Shown here: positions 21,839-35,907 of the stretch, piece after piece
How positions within the stretch are numbered: position 1 is the first letter of the stretch
Layout: every line of letters starts with the position of its first letter
NCBI RefSeq assembly: GCF_014359565.1
Contig: NZ_JACIZD010000019.1
Span: 1-45,456 of the forward strand
Source of the DNA: Immundisolibacter sp.
GTDB taxonomy: Bacteria > Pseudomonadota > Gammaproteobacteria > Immundisolibacterales > Immundisolibacteraceae
Length of the DNA stretch: 45,456 nt
Direction of reading: 5' to 3'
The notes under the pieces: model-generated
The model's input: the letters and a program-made list of their open reading frames with translations, nothing else
The model's database searches: none
Told to the model about the DNA's origin: nothing
Program-made: the position numbers and the translations under genes

Positions 21839-21854
21839 TGGCACGGCCACTGCT
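21839..21854 (+). promoter_or_regulatory. Sigma-54 promoter match upstream of nasT
   Basis: TGGCACGGCCACTGCT matches TGGCACG-N4-TTGCW with one mismatch in the -12 element. GG at 21840-21841 and GC at 21852-21853 have exact 10-base spacing. The predicted start is near 21865, about 26 bases before the nasT ATG. It lies just after priA ends, so nasTS can be transcribed independently of the upstream housekeeping genes. Confidence 0.62.
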
Positions 21855-21890: not shown

Positions 21891-22478
21891 ATGAAACCTG
21901 CCTCCTTGCGCGTCATGCTGGTCGATGACGACCTCGAACGCCGCGCGCTGGTGGCCGCCGCACTGAACGATGCTGGCCTGGCAGTGGTGGCCCAGCTGGG
22001 CACTGCCGACGGGCTGTTGCGGGCGGTGGCCGGTTGCACGCCGGACGTGGTGATCATCGACCTGGAATCGCCCGACCGCGACATCCTGGAGAACATGCGC
22101 TGCCTGTCGCGCGACAACCCGCATCCGGTGGTGATGTTCGCCACCTCGTCCGATAGCGACGCCATTCGCGAGGCCATCGAGGCCGGCGTCAGCGCCTACG
22201 TGGTCGACGGCCTCAGTCCCGGCCGGGTGCGCTCGGTGGTGGAGGTGGCGGTCGCGCGCTTTCGCCAGTACGCATCGCTACAGCGCGAACTGGCCGAGGC
22301 GCGCACCAGTCTGGCGCAGCGCAAGCTCATCGATCGCGCCAAGGGCATCCTCATGGAGCGCGGCCGGCGCACCGAAAGCGAGGCCTACCATGCCCTGCGC
22401 AAGCTGGCCATGGATCAGAACAAGACCATCGCCGACATCGCCCAGGGCGTGATCGACACCGCCGAGTTGTTCAAATGA
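21891..22478 (+). CDS. nasT: NasT, ANTAR-domain nitrate antiterminator
   Basis: The product has 195 residues. The receiver-like domain (1-125) has acidic residues D12-D14 and D57 (VVIIDL), and the AGVSAYVVDGL segment that replaces the usual receiver lysine region in NasT proteins. The ANTAR RNA-binding domain (about 133-190) reads LAQRKLIDRAKGILMERGRR then TESEAYHALRKLAMD. NasT binds tandem hairpins in nitrate-assimilation leaders and prevents termination; NasS inhibits it when nitrate is absent. It overlaps nasS by 4 bases (ATGA), so the proteins are made together. Three candidate target leaders occur downstream in this window. I chose the ATG at 21891; an open frame upstream overlaps priA and is not coding. 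Confidence 0.94.
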   Translation: MKPASLRVMLVDDDLERRALVAAALNDAGLAVVAQLGTADGLLRAVAGCTPDVVIIDLESPDRDILENMRCLSRDNPHPVVMFATSSDSDAIREAIEAGVSAYVVDGLSPGRVRSVVEVAVARFRQYASLQRELAEARTSLAQRKLIDRAKGILMERGRRTESEAYHALRKLAMDQNKTIADIAQGVIDTAELFK

Positions 22479-23701
22479 GCCCGAGCCTGCCGACCCCGGA
22501 ACTGCCCCGGCTGCGCCTGGGCTACATCCCGCTCACGGACGCCGCGCCGCTGGTGGTGGCGCTGGAGAATGGCCACTTCGAGCGCTTCGGGCTGGATGTG
22601 AGCCTGTCGCGCCAGCCGTCGTGGGCCACGCTGCGCGACAAGCTCGGCATCGGTCATCTGGACGGCGCGCACCTGCTGGCGCCGATGGCGCTGGCCTGTT
22701 CGCTGGGTGTGGAAGGCGTGCCGCAGCGGCTGGTGACAGCGCTCAGTCTTGGCCTGGGCGGCAATGCCATCACCGTCGCCGACAACCTGTACCGGGACAT
22801 GCAGGCGGCGGCGGGCGGCCAGCCCGTGACCGCGCAGGCACTGGCCAGCGTCATCGCGCGGCGCCGGGCGGCAGGCGCCGATCCGCTGACCTTCGCGACG
22901 GTCTATCCGACCTCCAACCACACCTATCTGCTGCGCTACTGGCTGGCCGCAGCGGGCATCGACCCGGACCGTGACCTGCGCCTGATCGTGGTACCGCCGC
23001 CGCAGATGGTGCAGCGCCTGAAACAGGGCGACATCTACGGTTACTGCGTCGGCGAGCCCTGGAACACGCTGGCGGTGCGCGACGGCATCGGCTGCATCGT
23101 CGCCACCGGGCACGACGTGTGGAACAACGCGCCGGAAAAGGTGCTGGCCGTGGGCGCCGCCTGGGCGCAGCGCTACCCGGCCACGCACATGGCGCTGATC
23201 TGCGCCATCGTCGAGGCCGCCCGCTGGCTCGATGAAAGTCCCGAAAATCGCCTGCAGGCGGCGCATCTGCTGGCCGGCGCGACGTACCTGAACCTGCCGG
23301 TGGAGGTGATTGCGGCCTCGCTCAGCGGCCACCTGACGCTCGACCAGCGCGGCACGCAGCGCGAGCTGGCGGACTTTCACGTCTTTTACCGCTATGCCGC
23401 CAACTTCCCCTGGCGCTCCCATGCGCTGTGGATGCTGCGGCAAATGGTCCGCTGGGGACAGCTGCCGGCCGATGTCGATCTGCTGGCCGCGGCCCATGCC
23501 ACGTACCGCCCGGACATTTACCGGCTGGCCGCGGCCCGTCTGGGCGTGCCGGCGCCGGTCGTGGACATGAAGGCCGAGGGCGGCCATCGAGGCCCCTGGA
23601 AACTCGGTGAGGGCAACGCCGCGGTGGCGCTGGGCCCCGACCGTTTCATCGACGGGGCCGTGTTCGACCCGGCGGATGTTGGCGCGAAGATTGCTCAATA
23701 A
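22475..23701 (+). CDS. nasS: NasS, cytoplasmic nitrate sensor of the NrtA/CmpA family
   Basis: The product has 408 residues and resembles the periplasmic nitrate-binding protein NrtA encoded at 32823-34127: both share GYIPLTDAAP/GFIPLTDCAP, QPSWATLRDKL/EASWAAVRDKL, VVPPPQMV and YCVGEPWN/FCVGEPWN. Unlike NrtA it has no signal peptide or Tat motif, so it stays in the cytoplasm. This fits NasS, which binds nitrate or nitrite and then releases NasT. The order nasT-nasS with a 4-base overlap supports a stoichiometric pair. The last codons contain the sigma-54 promoter match for nirB. Confidence 0.92.
   Translation: MSPSLPTPELPRLRLGYIPLTDAAPLVVALENGHFERFGLDVSLSRQPSWATLRDKLGIGHLDGAHLLAPMALACSLGVEGVPQRLVTALSLGLGGNAITVADNLYRDMQAAAGGQPVTAQALASVIARRRAAGADPLTFATVYPTSNHTYLLRYWLAAAGIDPDRDLRLIVVPPPQMVQRLKQGDIYGYCVGEPWNTLAVRDGIGCIVATGHDVWNNAPEKVLAVGAAWAQRYPATHMALICAIVEAARWLDESPENRLQAAHLLAGATYLNLPVEVIAASLSGHLTLDQRGTQRELADFHVFYRYAANFPWRSHALWMLRQMVRWGQLPADVDLLAAAHATYRPDIYRLAAARLGVPAPVVDMKAEGGHRGPWKLGEGNAAVALGPDRFIDGAVFDPADVGAKIAQ
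23680..23695 (+). promoter_or_regulatory. Sigma-54 promoter match for nirB-nirD-nasA
   Basis: TGGCGCGAAGATTGCT matches TGGCACG-N4-TTGCW with a single mismatch. GG at 23681-23682 and GC at 23693-23694 are 10 bases apart. It sits inside the final codons of nasS. The predicted start near 23706 gives a leader of about 152 bases before nirB. Confidence 0.65.
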
Positions 23702-23783: not shown

Positions 23784-23830
23784 GTTCGCCAAAGACGGTG
23801 AGCCGAACAGGACCCTGGTTTGTGCCAGGG
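23784..23830 (+). promoter_or_regulatory. Tandem hexaloop hairpins (ANTAR-target type) in the nirB leader
   Basis: Hairpin 1 (23784-23803) is GUUCGCC-AAAGAC-GGUGAGC: 7 pairs including two G-U pairs, with a six-base loop carrying A1 and G4, the two bases conserved in ANTAR-target loops. Hairpin 2 (23813-23830) is CCCUGG-UUUGUG-CCAGGG: six Watson-Crick pairs and a six-base loop with G4 but U1. The linker is 9 bases. No U-rich intrinsic terminator is visible between hairpin 2 and the nirB ATG at 23858. If NasT acts here it may work through another mechanism, or the terminator is not recognisable. NasT/NasS lie immediately upstream. Confidence 0.55.
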
Positions 23831-30673: not shown

Positions 30674-30711
30674 GCGGCTTGCTCGCGGGCCAGCGACCGG
30701 TCGCCGGGAGC

Positions 30712-30727
30712 TGGCCCAGTTATTGCT
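30712..30727 (+). promoter_or_regulatory. Sigma-54 promoter match for the porin gene
   Basis: TGGCCCAGTTATTGCT has a perfect -12 (TTGCT) and TGGC at -24, with GG at 30713-30714 and GC at 30725-30726, 10 bases apart. The predicted start is 30738, exactly the first base of the first leader hairpin. It lies 38 bases after the nasA stop. Confidence 0.6.
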
Positions 30728-30737
30728 GAATGCCAGC

Positions 30738-30790
30738 TGGCTGCGACGCTGCAGCCACGGGGTTCGCCCCAACCGACGCGCGGTCGCGTC
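30738..30790 (+). promoter_or_regulatory. Candidate ANTAR-target hairpins in the porin leader
   Basis: Hairpin 1 (30738-30757) is UGGCUGC-GACGCU-GCAGCCA: seven Watson-Crick pairs with a six-base loop carrying G4. Hairpin 2 (30775-30790) is GACGC-GCGGUC-GCGUC, also a six-base loop with G4. Both loops have G instead of A at position 1, a departure from the usual A1/G4 pattern. A small GGGG-UUCG-CCCC hairpin (30760-30770 area) lies between them. An intrinsic terminator follows at 30806. The arrangement matches an antitermination leader. Confidence 0.5.
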
Positions 30791-30805
30791 ACGCAACGAC
30801 AACGA

Positions 30806-30843
30806 GGTCGTACCTGCCAACAGGCGGGTGCGGCCTTTTTTTT
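30806..30843 (+). terminator. Intrinsic terminator in the porin leader
   Basis: A 13-pair stem (GGUCGUACCUGCC with GGCGGGUGCGGCC, including four G-U pairs) closes an AACA loop and is followed by eight uridines (30836-30843). The porin ATG at 30887 lies 43 bases downstream, so this is a leader attenuator for the porin as well as a stop for transcripts from nasA. Confidence 0.85.
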
Positions 30844-30886
30844 GTGCCCGCTGAAAGGCGGGCGCGTTCATATCAGGGATGGAAGC

Positions 30887-32209
30887 ATGAAATCTGACAT
30901 CGCAATCATCGGCGCAGGCGCTCTGTTGGCAGGCAGCCTGGCGACCGGCACGGCGGCCGCGCACGCCATCGACGACGCACTGTTCCCGCTGACCGACTCC
31001 CTCATGCAGGGCAAGGTCAGCCTGGACGTGCGCTACCGCTTCGAACAGGTCGACCAGGACCGGCCAGCGAGCATCCGGGACGAGGCCAGCGCCCAAACCG
31101 TACGCACGCGCCTGGGCTGGCGCACCGGTTTGTTTCACGGTTTCTTTGCCTACGGCGAAGCCGAGAATGTGTCGGTGGTCGGCGAGGAGGACTACAACAA
31201 CACCTACAACGGCAAGACCAGATTCCCGGTCGTGGCCGACCCGGACGGCACCGAGGTCAACCAGGCGTACCTGGGTTACCTCGGCCTGAAGGGCAACACC
31301 TTCCGCTACGGTCGCCAGGCGTTCTTCTTCGACAACCACCGCTTCGTCGGTGACGTCGGCTGGCGCCAGAACCAGCAGACCTTCGACAGCTTCTTTTACG
31401 AGAACAAGATGCTGCCGGGCGTGACCGGCAGCTATGCCTACGTCTACAACGTGAACCGCGTGTTCGGTGAGGACACGCCCAACAAGGCGTTCGCCAACGC
31501 CGGCGATCTGCACCTGAAAGGCCACCTGATCAATCTGCAGTGGAAGCCAAACCCCGTCACTACGCTGACCGGCTACGCCTACCTGCTCGATTTCGACGAC
31601 TTCGCGGCGGAGTCCACCGCCACCTATGGCCTGCGTGCGATGGGCGAAATCCCGTTGCCGCAGCTGAAATTGCCGACCCTGCCGGGCGCCGCCGGTTCGG
31701 CCATCCTGTACGCCGCCGAGTACGCCCGCCAGAGCGACTACGCCGACAACCCGGGCAATTTCAATCTCGACTACGCGCTGGCCGAGGGCGGCGTGCGCCT
31801 GTTTGGCGTCAGCTTCAAGGCCGCCTACGAGCTGCTGCAAGGCGGCGCGATGAACGGCACCCGCGCCCTGCAGACGCCGCTCGCCACGCTGCATGCCTTC
31901 AACGGCTGGACGGATCAGTTCCTGCGCACGCCGGCGGCAGGGCTGAAGGACACCTATTTCACGGTCGGCGGACCGGTGCCGGGGCTGGCCATGGACTGGC
32001 TGCTGCGTTACGACAGCTACAAATCGGACGCCGGGAGCAACGACTACGGCGACGAGTGGGGCGTGCTGCTGAGCAAGACCTTCGCCGAGAAGTACACCGT
32101 CGGCCTCAAGTACGCCGACTACAGCACCGACGCGCCGGCCTTCGTCGCCGGCCGGCCGGACACCAGCGACGTCAGCAAGAGCTGGCTGTGGGTGCAGATC
32201 AAGATCTGA
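30887..32209 (+). CDS. Outer-membrane porin, alginate-export (AlgE-like) barrel family
   Basis: The product has 440 residues. A signal peptide is clear (hydrophobic IAIIGAGALLAGSLATGT, likely cleaved after AHA). The mature part alternates polar and hydrophobic residues in many strands and ends WLWVQIKI, a terminal beta-strand of an outer-membrane barrel. Features such as FRYGRQAFFFDNHRFVGDVG, followed by WRQNQQTFD, are typical of the alginate-export-type barrel family found in Gram-negative bacteria. Its position between nasA and nrtABD, its own sigma-54 promoter and its attenuated leader suggest a porin for nitrate or nitrite uptake; that role is inferred. The ATG at 30887 is preferred to a GTG inside the terminator uridine run. 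Confidence 0.85.
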   Translation: MKSDIAIIGAGALLAGSLATGTAAAHAIDDALFPLTDSLMQGKVSLDVRYRFEQVDQDRPASIRDEASAQTVRTRLGWRTGLFHGFFAYGEAENVSVVGEEDYNNTYNGKTRFPVVADPDGTEVNQAYLGYLGLKGNTFRYGRQAFFFDNHRFVGDVGWRQNQQTFDSFFYENKMLPGVTGSYAYVYNVNRVFGEDTPNKAFANAGDLHLKGHLINLQWKPNPVTTLTGYAYLLDFDDFAAESTATYGLRAMGEIPLPQLKLPTLPGAAGSAILYAAEYARQSDYADNPGNFNLDYALAEGGVRLFGVSFKAAYELLQGGAMNGTRALQTPLATLHAFNGWTDQFLRTPAAGLKDTYFTVGGPVPGLAMDWLLRYDSYKSDAGSNDYGDEWGVLLSKTFAEKYTVGLKYADYSTDAPAFVAGRPDTSDVSKSWLWVQIKI

Positions 32210-32304: not shown

Positions 32305-32625
32305 GTGGGACGAATGATCACACTCAAGCCGTATTGGCTGTCCGGCCGTTGTTGCGGTTGCCCAAGCGGGACGACTGGCGCATTGCCGGCCCACCGGCCG
32401 GCCTGGCTCGATTCGGTGCTCGCGCGCGCCACGGCGGTGCAGACCGCCGACCGCTACGCCCACGGGGCGGATGTAGTGGCGGACCTTGAACATGGCCTGT
32501 CCGGCGGCGCCGGCACGGCGCCACAACGCCCGCAACCCCTGTATGCACGCAATCCGCTGCGTTTCTGGCAGGGCCTGTACGCGCTGCTGGCGATCGCGCT
32601 GCTGGTGCTTTTGGCGCGGGCTTGA
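32305..32625 (+). pseudogene. C-terminal remnant of a nitrate-locus serine/threonine kinase-phosphatase
   Basis: About 70 residues read like the end of the bifunctional Ser/Thr kinase/phosphatase encoded beside nasA/nirB in pseudomonads. AWLDSVLARATAVQTADRYA is kinase C-lobe-like, then comes HGADVVADLEHGL, then a proline-rich linker ARNPLRFWQGLYALLAIALL with a C-terminal membrane helix. The catalytic kinase and PP2C-type domains are absent. The first 30 residues (MITLKPYWLSGRCCGCPSG) do not fit, and a frame +1 away reads LPKRDDWRIAGPP just upstream, which suggests a frameshift. A short membrane peptide expressed on its own cannot be excluded. It sits exactly between the porin and nrtABD units. 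Confidence 0.6.
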
Positions 32626-32631
32626 TGCGGC

Positions 32632-32647
32632 TGGCACGCGTCGTGCT
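32632..32647 (+). promoter_or_regulatory. Sigma-54 promoter match for nrtABD
   Basis: TGGCACGCGTCGTGCT has a perfect -24 element (TGGCACG) and one mismatch in the -12 element. GG at 32633-32634 and GC at 32645-32646 are 10 bases apart. The predicted start is near 32658, 8 bases before the first leader hairpin. Confidence 0.65.
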
Positions 32648-32665
32648 TTAAGCAACAGCGTAAGC

Positions 32666-32735
32666 GTCGTGTGTGCGGCAGCGAAGCCGCCCGCACGACC
32701 CACATAACGGACCGACTCACGCCACCGACGGCGTG
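32666..32735 (+). promoter_or_regulatory. Tandem ANTAR-target hairpins in the nrtA leader
   Basis: Hairpin 1 (32666-32699) has an inner helix GCGGC/GCCGC closing the six-base loop AGCGAA, extended after a small internal loop by GUCGUGU/GCACGAC. Hairpin 2 (32718-32735) is CACGCC-ACCGAC-GGCGUG, extendable by CGAC/GUCG. Both loops are hexamers with A1 and G4, the hallmark of ANTAR-protein RNA targets. The intrinsic terminator at 32754-32793 follows 18 bases later. NasT, encoded 11 kb upstream, is the obvious ligand: on nitrate it should bind and allow read-through into nrtABD. Confidence 0.78.
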
Positions 32736-32753
32736 GCGGTCGCGGGCAACGGA

Positions 32754-32793
32754 GCCCGCCGTCACACACCCTTGTGACGGCGGGCTTTTTTTT
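32754..32793 (+). terminator. Intrinsic terminator (attenuator) in the nrtA leader
   Basis: A perfect 13-pair stem (GCCCGCCGTCACA with TGTGACGGCGGGC) around a six-base loop is followed by eight uridines. It lies 29 bases before the nrtA start, between the promoter and its gene, so it can only work as a leader attenuator. Confidence 0.9.
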
Positions 32794-32822: not shown

Positions 32823-34127
32823 ATGAACGATTCGAAGATCCCCGGCAGCCCCGTCGCTACCCCGGACAAGCCGGCCGATCAGCCGGTCGATCCGGGCCGA
32901 CGCAGCCTGCTGCGCGGCGCCCTGGTCACCACCGGCGCGGCCGCGCTCCTGAACCTGGTGCCATCGGCCATTCGCAGCGCGGCCTGGGCGGCCGGTTCGG
33001 ACGCGCCGGAAAAGCCGGACCTCAAGATTGGTTTCATTCCGCTGACCGATTGCGCGCCGGTGGTGATGGCGGCCTTGAAGGGTTTCGACAAGAAATACGG
33101 CCTGAACATCACCCCGACCAAGGAAGCCTCCTGGGCCGCCGTGCGCGACAAGCTGATGTATGGCGAGATCGACGCCGCGCACGTGCTGTACGGCCTCATC
33201 TACGGCGTGCAGCTGGGCACCCGCGGCCCGCAAAAGGACATGGCCGTGCTGCTGACGCTCAACAACAACGGTCAGGCCATCACGCTCTCGAACGACCTCA
33301 AGAAGGCTGGCGTCACCGACGGCGCCGCGCTCAAAAAGCTGGTCGACGGCAAGGCCCGCGATTACGTCTTCGCGCAGACCTTCCCGACCGGCACACATGC
33401 CATGTGGCTGTACTACTGGCTGGCGGCCAACGGCATCGATCCGTTCCGGGACGTCAAGAACATCGTCGTGCCGCCGCCGCAGATGGTGGCCAACATGCGC
33501 GTCGGCAACATGGACGGCTTTTGCGTGGGCGAGCCCTGGAACGCCCGCGCCATCGCCGACGACATCGGCTTTACCGCCGTCACCAGCCAGGAAATTTGGC
33601 CCGATCATCCGGAAAAAGTGCTCGGCACGAGCGCCGAGTTCGTCGCCCAGTACCCCAACACGGCGCGCGCCATGACGGCCGCCATCCTGGACGCCGCCCG
33701 CTGGTGCGACGCGCAGGAGAACCGCGCCGAGATGGCCGAGGCCGTGGCCGCCAAGTCGTACGTGAACTGCCCGGTGGACATCATCAAGGGGCGCATTCTG
33801 GGCGAGTACGAGAACGGCCTCGGCAAGAAATGGACCGACGCCAAGCCCATGCGCTTTTTCCGCGACGGCGAGGTCACTTATCCCTGGCTGTCGGACGGCA
33901 TGTGGTTCCTGACCCAGCACAAACGCTGGGGCCTGATGGCCGGCGACCCGGATTACCTGGCAGTGGCCAGGAAAGTGAACCGCCTCGACGTGTACGCGCA
34001 GGCGGCAGCGGCGGTGGGCGTGGCAGTTCCCAAGGACACGCTGCGCAAGTCCACGCTCATCGACGGCACGGTGTGGGACGGCACCGACCCGGCCGCGTAT
34101 GCGACAAGTTTCAAGATCAGGAGTTGA
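32823..34127 (+). CDS. nrtA: Nitrate ABC transporter, substrate-binding protein
   Basis: The product has 434 residues. An N-terminal twin-arginine-like signal is visible (GRRSLLRGALVTTGAAALL, R26-R27). The mature protein has the NrtA/CmpA motifs GFIPLTDCAPVV, EASWAAVRDKLMYGEIDAAH, VVPPPQMVANMRVG and FCVGEPWNARA. It should capture nitrate in the periplasm for NrtB/NrtD. The ATG at 32823 has AAGGAG about 8 bases upstream. It is the first gene of nrtABD and a paralogue of NasS at 22475-23701. Confidence 0.95.
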   Translation: MNDSKIPGSPVATPDKPADQPVDPGRRSLLRGALVTTGAAALLNLVPSAIRSAAWAAGSDAPEKPDLKIGFIPLTDCAPVVMAALKGFDKKYGLNITPTKEASWAAVRDKLMYGEIDAAHVLYGLIYGVQLGTRGPQKDMAVLLTLNNNGQAITLSNDLKKAGVTDGAALKKLVDGKARDYVFAQTFPTGTHAMWLYYWLAANGIDPFRDVKNIVVPPPQMVANMRVGNMDGFCVGEPWNARAIADDIGFTAVTSQEIWPDHPEKVLGTSAEFVAQYPNTARAMTAAILDAARWCDAQENRAEMAEAVAAKSYVNCPVDIIKGRILGEYENGLGKKWTDAKPMRFFRDGEVTYPWLSDGMWFLTQHKRWGLMAGDPDYLAVARKVNRLDVYAQAAAAVGVAVPKDTLRKSTLIDGTVWDGTDPAAYATSFKIRS

Positions 34128-34130
34128 GCC

Positions 34131-35045
34131 ATGGCCGCGGTTATCCCGTTCGTGTCGGCAGCCCAGGGGCCCGTGCTTGCGCCGGCCACCACAGAACCCG
34201 CGCCCGAGGGCGCGGCAACGGTGCCCGATGATATGGCGCCGTCCCCGCGCGGGCCGGCATGGTTGCGCGCCACAGGACCGAACCCGCGTGTGCAGGCTTT
34301 TGCCAGGCAAGCAATTGCCGCGGCGGTTGGCCTGCTGGTCCTGGTGGCGCTGTGGTCACTGGTGGCGGCCAATACCCGCCTGCCGGGGCCGGCCGCCACC
34401 TGGGTGTCGGCGGTCGAGTTGTTCAGCGATCCGTTCTACAGAAACTCGCCCAACGACCAGGGCATCGGCTGGAACGTGCTGGCCTCGTTGCGGCGGGTGG
34501 CGCTGGGTTTTGGTGCGGCGGCGCTGGTCGGCATCCCGCTCGGCTTCGTGATTGGCCGCTTCCGCTTTCTGGGCGATGCCGCCGGGCCGGTCATCAGCCT
34601 GCTGCGGCCGGTATCGCCGCTGGCCTGGCTGCCGATCGGCCTGTTGCTGTTCCGGTCGGCCGAGCCCTCGGCGATCTTCGCCATCTTCATCTGCAGCATC
34701 TGGCCGATGATCATCAACACCGCGTCCGGTGTGCAGCAGGTGCCGCGCGAGTATCTGGACGTGGCGCGCGTGCTGCGGCTGTCGGAATGGACCGTGTTTC
34801 GACGCATCCTGCTGCCGTCCAGCCTGCCGCAGGTGTTGACGGGCGTGCGCCTGTCGGTGGGCATCGCCTGGCTGGTGATCGTCGCCGCCGAGATGCTGAC
34901 CGGCGGCGTGGGCATCGGCTTCTGGGTGTGGGACGAGTGGAACAACCTGAACGTCGAACACATCCTGATCGCGATTTTCGTCATCGGCGCGGTCGGTCTG
35001 CTGCTGGAGCAGGCCCTGCTGCTGCTGGCCCGTCGATTGCCGTGA
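34131..35045 (+). CDS. nrtB: Nitrate ABC transporter, permease
   Basis: The product has 304 residues: an N-terminal soluble segment of about 55 residues, then a helix near 60-80 (AIAAAVGLLVLVALWSLVAA) and five further membrane segments. The cytoplasmic EAA loop reads EYLDVARVLRLSEWTVFRRI, which contacts the ATPase. It starts 3 bases after nrtA, with CAGGAG upstream inside the nrtA end. The proline/alanine-rich N-terminal tail is longer than in many homologues. Confidence 0.94.
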   Translation: MAAVIPFVSAAQGPVLAPATTEPAPEGAATVPDDMAPSPRGPAWLRATGPNPRVQAFARQAIAAAVGLLVLVALWSLVAANTRLPGPAATWVSAVELFSDPFYRNSPNDQGIGWNVLASLRRVALGFGAAALVGIPLGFVIGRFRFLGDAAGPVISLLRPVSPLAWLPIGLLLFRSAEPSAIFAIFICSIWPMIINTASGVQQVPREYLDVARVLRLSEWTVFRRILLPSSLPQVLTGVRLSVGIAWLVIVAAEMLTGGVGIGFWVWDEWNNLNVEHILIAIFVIGAVGLLLEQALLLLARRLP

Positions 35046-35109
35046 TTTTTTGTTTTCAACGCCGGCAGTCGTTGAAAGCGGTTGCGAGTTTTCTTGCGGG
35101 AGCCAGACC

Positions 35110-35907
35110 ATGAACGAATCGAAATTCCTGACCGTCGAAAAGGTCGACGTAACTTTCCCGACGCCCAAAGGCCCGCTCACCGTGCTGGAAGGCGCCAGTT
35201 TCGACGTGGCGCGCGGCGAGGTGGTGGCCCTGATCGGCCATTCCGGCTGCGGCAAATCGACACTACTGAACGTCATCGCCGGCCTGCACACCGCCAGCCG
35301 TGGCGGCGTGATCCTGGAAGGCCACGAAGTCACCGAGCCCGGCCCGGATCGGGCCATGGTGTTCCAGACCCACGCCCTGCTGCCGTGGCTGTCGGCCTAC
35401 GACAACGTGCGCCTGGCCGTGGACCGCGTGTTCGGCAAAACCAAGACCAAGGCCGAGCGCCACGACTGGACCGTGCAGCACCTGGAACTGGTGCACATGG
35501 CGCACGCGGCCGATCGCAAGCCGGCCGAGATTTCCGGCGGCATGCGCCAGCGGGTAGGCATCGCCCGGGCGCTGGCCATGCAGCCCAAAGTGCTGCTGAT
35601 GGACGAACCGTTTGGCGCTCTGGACGCCCTCACCCGCGCCCAGTTGCAGGACGCGCTACTGGAACTGCACGCCAGCCTGGGCATGACCGTCATCCTGGTC
35701 ACCCACGACGTGGATGAGGCGGTGCTGCTGTCGGATAAGGTGGTGATGCTCACCAACGGCCCGCACGCCCATGTGGGTGAAGTCATGAGCGTGCCGCTGG
35801 CGCGCCCGCGCGAGCGCCTGGCACTGGCCGAGGACGCGGTCTTTACCCACTGCCGCGCCGCGCTGCTGCGCTTTTTGCACGCCGCGCATCCGGCGCGGGC
35901 GGCGTGA
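35110..35907 (+). CDS. nrtD: Nitrate ABC transporter, ATPase
   Basis: The product has 265 residues with Walker A (GHSGCGKSTLLNVIAG), the ABC signature (ISGGMRQRVGIARAL), Walker B (VLLMDEPFGALDAL) and the switch histidine (VTHDVDEA). It resembles NrtD rather than the NrtC fusion with a regulatory binding domain, because nothing follows the ATPase domain. The ATG at 35110 has GGGAG upstream; the upstream-open frame is not supported. Together with NrtA and NrtB it forms the inner-membrane nitrate importer. It converges on the E2 gene 36 bases away; a GGCTCGG/CGAGAGCC imperfect hairpin lies between them. Confidence 0.94.
   Translation: MNESKFLTVEKVDVTFPTPKGPLTVLEGASFDVARGEVVALIGHSGCGKSTLLNVIAGLHTASRGGVILEGHEVTEPGPDRAMVFQTHALLPWLSAYDNVRLAVDRVFGKTKTKAERHDWTVQHLELVHMAHAADRKPAEISGGMRQRVGIARALAMQPKVLLMDEPFGALDALTRAQLQDALLELHASLGMTVILVTHDVDEAVLLSDKVVMLTNGPHAHVGEVMSVPLARPRERLALAEDAVFTHCRAALLRFLHAAHPARAA

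Follow-up and report, generated by a model that had tools for sequence, protein, structure and literature searches.

In the 45,456-nucleotide stretch of Immundisolibacter DNA analyzed here (the window), the outer-membrane porin gene located between nasA and nrtA is probably controlled by a NasT-type (ANTAR) antitermination leader that carries its own sigma-54 promoter (30712-30843). Descriptions of nitrate entry are usually confined to the inner membrane, general porins being assumed for the outer one; if the porin is indeed under a NasT-type switch, outer-membrane nitrate passage would become a regulated step. The leader was classed among the NasT/ANTAR leaders, a known type, as a variant, because its upstream hairpin (P1) lacks an A at loop position 1 (A1) and its score with R1, a covariance model built from two-hairpin nas-type leaders, was not significant. 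A sequence-only reading of the window had already placed a sigma-54 promoter and a nitrate-type attenuator ahead of the porin gene, and this core idea was supported, whereas the hairpins it had named are not the switch pair. The idea is now stronger than that reading could see, because a canonical hairpin (P2) that excludes the terminator and like leaders in other lineages have been found.

Architecture of the porin leader

The cluster is arranged in the order nasT, nasS, nirB, nirD-like, nasA, porin, nrtA, nrtB, and nrtC (Table 1). NasT is the single ANTAR protein encoded in the genome, NasS-type genes similarly adjoin nasT in relatives, and NrtB and NrtC exceeded the NCBIfam cut-offs for nitrate transporters. 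We also observed a strong sigma-54-type site (TGGCACGGCCACTGCT) ahead of nasT at 21839-21854, a possible own sigma-54 promoter of nirB (TGGCGCGAAGATTGCT, 23680-23695), and, near nirB, an A1/G4 hexaloop hairpin (GTTCGCC-AAAGAC-GGTGAGC, 23784-23803) that is not followed by a U-run terminator. A 106-codon open frame between the porin gene and the nrtA leader (32305-32625) has a hydrophobic stretch at its end and no Pfam match, and its product is possibly a small membrane protein.

Table 1. Elements of the porin leader and of the surrounding nitrate-assimilation cluster (window positions).
Feature	Position	Strand	Remarks
nasT	21891..22478	+	only ANTAR protein gene in genome; 9 kb upstream of porin leader
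nasS, nitrate-sensor-like partner of NasT	22475..23701	+	PF13379
Sigma-54-type promoter, TGGCCCA-GTTA-TTGCT	30712..30727	+	0 of 16 positions differ in congener L080
Hairpin H1, candidate P1, TGGCTGC-GACGCT-GCAGCCA, 7 pairs	30738..30757	+	starts at predicted +1
Spacer hairpin, GGGG-UUCG-CCCC	30759..30770	+	from folding
Hairpin H2, GACGC-GCGGTC-GCGTC	30775..30790	+	loop GCGGUC or CGGU tetraloop
Hairpin P2, ACGAC-AACGAG-GUCGU	30796..30811	+	canonical ANTAR loop A1/G4; between H2 and terminator
Intrinsic terminator, GGTCGTACCTGCC-AACA-GGCGGGTGCGGCC, 13 pairs	30806..30835; U8 30836-30843	+	excludes P2
Outer-membrane porin gene, 440 aa	30887..32209	+	Pfam PF13372 (Alginate_exp), 30.8 bits
nrtA leader	32632..32793	+	sigma-54 site 32632-32647; P2 AACGGA 32742-32759; terminator 32754-32785 with U8
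nrtA leader, upstream hairpins	AGCGAA 32675-32690; ACCGAC 32719-32734	+	loops A1/G4
nrtABC, nitrate ABC importer	32823..35907	+	TIGR01183 and TIGR01184 above cut-off; PF13379

The sigma-54-type site is present where the sequence-only reading had put it, with the predicted +1 at about 30738, and the GG at -24 and the GC at -12 stand at the standard spacing (TGGCCCAGTTATTGCT) and are conserved in the congener. The match was dropped as stand-alone evidence, because the count of such sites in the GC-rich window was not above chance (8 found against 6.2 expected at <=2 mismatches), and its weight comes from its position, its conservation, and the neighboring nas promoters. RpoN and NtrC are both encoded in the genome; matches to NtrC palindromes were no more than chance, and no convincing NtrC site was found.

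The 7-pair hexaloop hairpin beginning at +1 (H1) and the 13-pair terminator with U8 were likewise confirmed. The second hairpin named with them (H2) is also present, but its hexaloop is doubtful because G1 and C6 of the loop pair and the minimum-energy fold is a CGGU tetraloop. H1 and H2 together were rejected as the ANTAR motif: there is no overlap of either with the terminator, and the loop of H2 shrinks to a tetraloop. The second ANTAR hairpin that does look functional is P2, which had been missed. Its hexaloop (AACGAG) has A1 and G4, and, because the terminator ahead of the gene includes the 3' arm of P2 in its own 5' arm, the two structures are mutually exclusive. In prefix folding, the pair probability of P2 was 0.95-0.99 before the 3' arm of the terminator is made and 0 after, and a like switch between P2 and terminator was seen in the cluster's nrtA leader. 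The whole porin leader folded at z = -5.0 compared with shuffles. An A1/G4 hairpin with an overlapping terminator arose in 2 of 2000 shuffled leaders, and, when the terminator was kept and the upstream part shuffled, an overlapping A1/G4 hairpin arose in 17 of 2000 (0.85%).

The A1/G4 pattern expected of P1 was absent from both candidates in the window (H1, GACGCU; H2, GCGGUC) and present in the congener (AACGCU). H2 is placed 5 nt ahead of P2, which is the usual position of P1, with a loop that is not canonical, and H1 is separated from P2 by extra hairpins. The R1 score of the porin leader in the window (10.9 bits, E 1.9; not significant) was low because the P1 position is taken by the atypical H2. 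The nrtA leader, scoring 42.7 bits, was the sole strong R1 match in the whole genome; it has three A1/G4 hexaloop hairpins, not two, the third of which overlaps the terminator, and three-hairpin nrtA leaders were also seen in L056 and L088.

Conservation and recurrence of the leader

The same leader is carried by the congener G002 (porin 95% identical), the sole congener in which it was found. Between the window and G002, the sigma-54 site, H2, P2, and terminator differ in 1 of 86 columns, the length of a T-run, whereas the 10-nt promoter spacer has 5 differences and the third codon positions of the porin differ by 14%. The H1 loop carries a single difference, being AACGCU in the congener. Thus, the G1/G4 loops that had been noted for both hairpins do occur in the window, but the G1 of H1 is not conserved; as judged from the two leaders, it is a species difference on one of the two loop bases known to matter, and it may serve as a natural experiment on the RNA requirements of NasT. 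Conservation of the loops in relatives, on which the sequence-only reading had made its proposal depend, was borne out: A1/G4 loops are retained in the congener and in most of the distant leaders. In a third congener genome, the nrtA leader is present; the porin contig breaks off inside the gene, and no porin leader turned up in the rest of that genome.

Among 68 relatives of the porin, 36 are encoded directly after nrtC, 13 elsewhere in nitrate-assimilation clusters, and 19 without nas neighbors within the contig examined. With about 49 of the 68 in such clusters, the porin is a recurrent partner of nitrate assimilation and not the isolated curiosity it had been taken for, and the nitrate-context label tracked the porin tree more than chance. 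A leader of its own, in which a canonical P2 overlaps a terminator, was found for 6 of the 13 nitrate-context porins not following nrtC (the window, L080, L033, L072, L084, and L085) compared with none of the 19 context-free relatives (Fisher p = 0.0019); 10 of 4140 random stretches had P2 with a terminator. Because the window and L080 represent the same lineage, the independent porin-leader lineages number about five. No such leader was seen for 5 of the 13. None of the 36 porins directly after nrtC had its own leader either; these are likely to be co-transcribed with the upstream genes, and in nrtABC-porin operons the leader is placed ahead of nrtA.

Two loci depart from this pattern. The porin leader of L081 has P1 AATGCC and a P2 loop GAAGAC, again with G1; a third ANTAR-type leader of that genome (8263-8297, minus strand) separates the porin from a NirB-like gene, and the porin, the NirB-like gene, and nrtA have separate leaders. 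The porin of L092 has P1 and P2 hexaloops ahead of it, upstream of 10586, but no U-run terminator, and control there may take another route, such as translation.

With regard to nrtA itself, P2 with a terminator (stem >=3) was found in 19 of 44 leaders compared with 0.3% in shuffles. R1 sites were present in 26 of 369 genomes of the class, mostly beside nasT, nrtA-like, or porin genes, and two porin leaders were among them. The leader alignment contained 34 double-sided changes in P1 and 15 in P2, counts that are partly circular because the hairpins were chosen by pairing; the weight therefore rests on the shuffle and random-stretch nulls. A first covariance alignment made with MAFFT had misplaced linkers and was set aside, and a DNA match to the leader in family member L108 (E 0.02) was spurious, lying inside a seryl-tRNA synthetase-like gene.

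Proposed nitrate control of the porin and its alternatives

The AlphaFold2 model of the porin (41 sequences, pLDDT 83.6) has 18 strands and the predicted outer-membrane barrel fold of OprD/Occ and AlgE. The closest solved folds were a BenF-like porin (Z 33.0) and the OccK/OccAB channels, with AlgE matching at a Z of about 30 (identity 11-16% throughout). Several Arg/Lys residues are invariant in 41 porin relatives, which might suit an anion channel, but they are conserved to the same degree in those without nas neighbors. A literature search, with most subscription journals outside its reach, found no description of a nitrate porin of such kind.

In the mechanism we propose, sigma-54 RNA polymerase would start at about 30738 under nitrogen limitation, and we infer that it is activated by NtrC. 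As the leader is synthesized, H1 and P2 would form. When nitrate is absent, NasS would hold NasT, so that P2 gives way to the terminator and transcription ends at U8; when nitrate or nitrite is present, free NasT would bind the hexaloop hairpins and hold P2, so that polymerase continues into the porin gene in parallel with nrtABC, the leader of which is equivalent. Given the switch-like leader and the presence of related porins in the nitrate-uptake clusters of many bacteria, we propose that nitrate passage at the outer membrane may be controlled jointly with the nitrate pump of the inner membrane. A broader reading, which we hold only tentatively and rate somewhat below even, is that an 18-strand channel lineage is dedicated to nitrate/nitrite and forms part of the NasT regulon throughout Gammaproteobacteria. 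Its genes would either close nrtABC-porin operons or have a sigma-54 promoter and an ANTAR leader of their own, and NasT would accept G1 in P1.

The leader could instead be a plain terminator of the nasTS-nirB-nasA operon, with the A1/G4 hairpin arising by chance and the porin being expressed otherwise. The U8 hairpin follows the nasA stop codon by about 130-160 nt, where it would terminate that operon, and the sigma-54 match taken by itself does not exceed chance; however, the overlap with P2 is rare in terminator-kept shuffles (0.85%), like arrangements precede nrtA and porin relatives in other families, and the promoter and leader are more conserved than third codon positions, so that we consider this explanation very unlikely. 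Antitermination would be compatible with part of it, as the terminator of the porin leader may also end upstream transcripts. A serious rival, albeit an unlikely one in our estimation, is that the NasT target is weakened in the window species, where the change of A1 to G in H1 would remove P1 and leave mostly constitutive termination or a feeble response. The difference from the congener in the H1 loop, the importance of A1 in EutV and NasR (PMC3369931), and the R1 score of 10.9 bits speak for such a loss, whereas H2 lies at the usual P1 distance and might serve, the G1 that the L081 porin leader has in its P2 suggests that G1 may be tolerated, and everything else in the leader is intact.

It is also conceivable, although somewhat doubtful, that the leader works as proposed while the porin carries another anion or a carbohydrate and owes its place in the nas cluster to something other than nitrate uptake. 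The fold is common to OprD/Occ channels for varied solutes and to AlgE, and the 19 relatives without nas neighbors in the contig examined would fit such a role; on the other side stand the 49 relatives in nitrate-assimilation contexts, including the 36 directly after nrtC.

Comparison with known systems

The porin itself shares its predicted 18-strand barrel with the OprD/Occ channels and AlgE but differs from them in its low identity (11-16%) and its nitrate-assimilation setting, with a sequence match only to Pfam Alginate_exp. This match would point to the alginate exporter AlgE, but the neighbors are nitrate genes.

Rfam searches at the gathering score returned nothing in the window and only a tRNA in the loci of eight relatives. 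The consensus of the Rfam narK RNA (RF03032) nevertheless resembles the porin leader in having a sigma-54-like GGCaC...UUGCU, a hairpin, and a P2-like CGAC-AAAGAC-GUCG. RF03032 scored 25.3 bits for the porin leader, which is below its gathering cut-off of 43.2, and 30.3 bits, also below it, for the G035 nrtA leader, where its alignment coincides with the R1 match. At 3688-3758 of L015, RF03032 has the appearance of a NasT/ANTAR-type target, the sigma-54 promoter lying inside the model. These sequence likenesses suggest that the orphan narK RNA is probably a NasT-type target.

The dual-hexaloop mechanism is established for EutV (PMC3369931), and loop positions A1 and G4 are important in NasR and EutV targets, A1 being needed for full function (PMC3369931). 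Compared with the EutV/NasR/AmiR RNA (PMC3369931), the porin leader is alike in its A1/G4 P2 overlapping the terminator and its upstream hexaloop hairpin, whereas it is unlike in that the window's upstream loops have G1 and additional hairpins lie between H1 and P2. In Paracoccus, leaders of this kind are known to be controlled by NasS-NasT (PMC3795266, PMC5424462). The NasST nas leaders of Paracoccus denitrificans nasA (PMC5424462) and Bradyrhizobium (PMC6759348) have nasT/nasS nearby, as is the case here, and, as in the window, hairpins and a terminator precede nitrate genes. The published NasST targets that we found are reductases, nos, nap, and related genes, whereas the gene proposed as a target here encodes a porin and has a sigma-54 promoter of its own.
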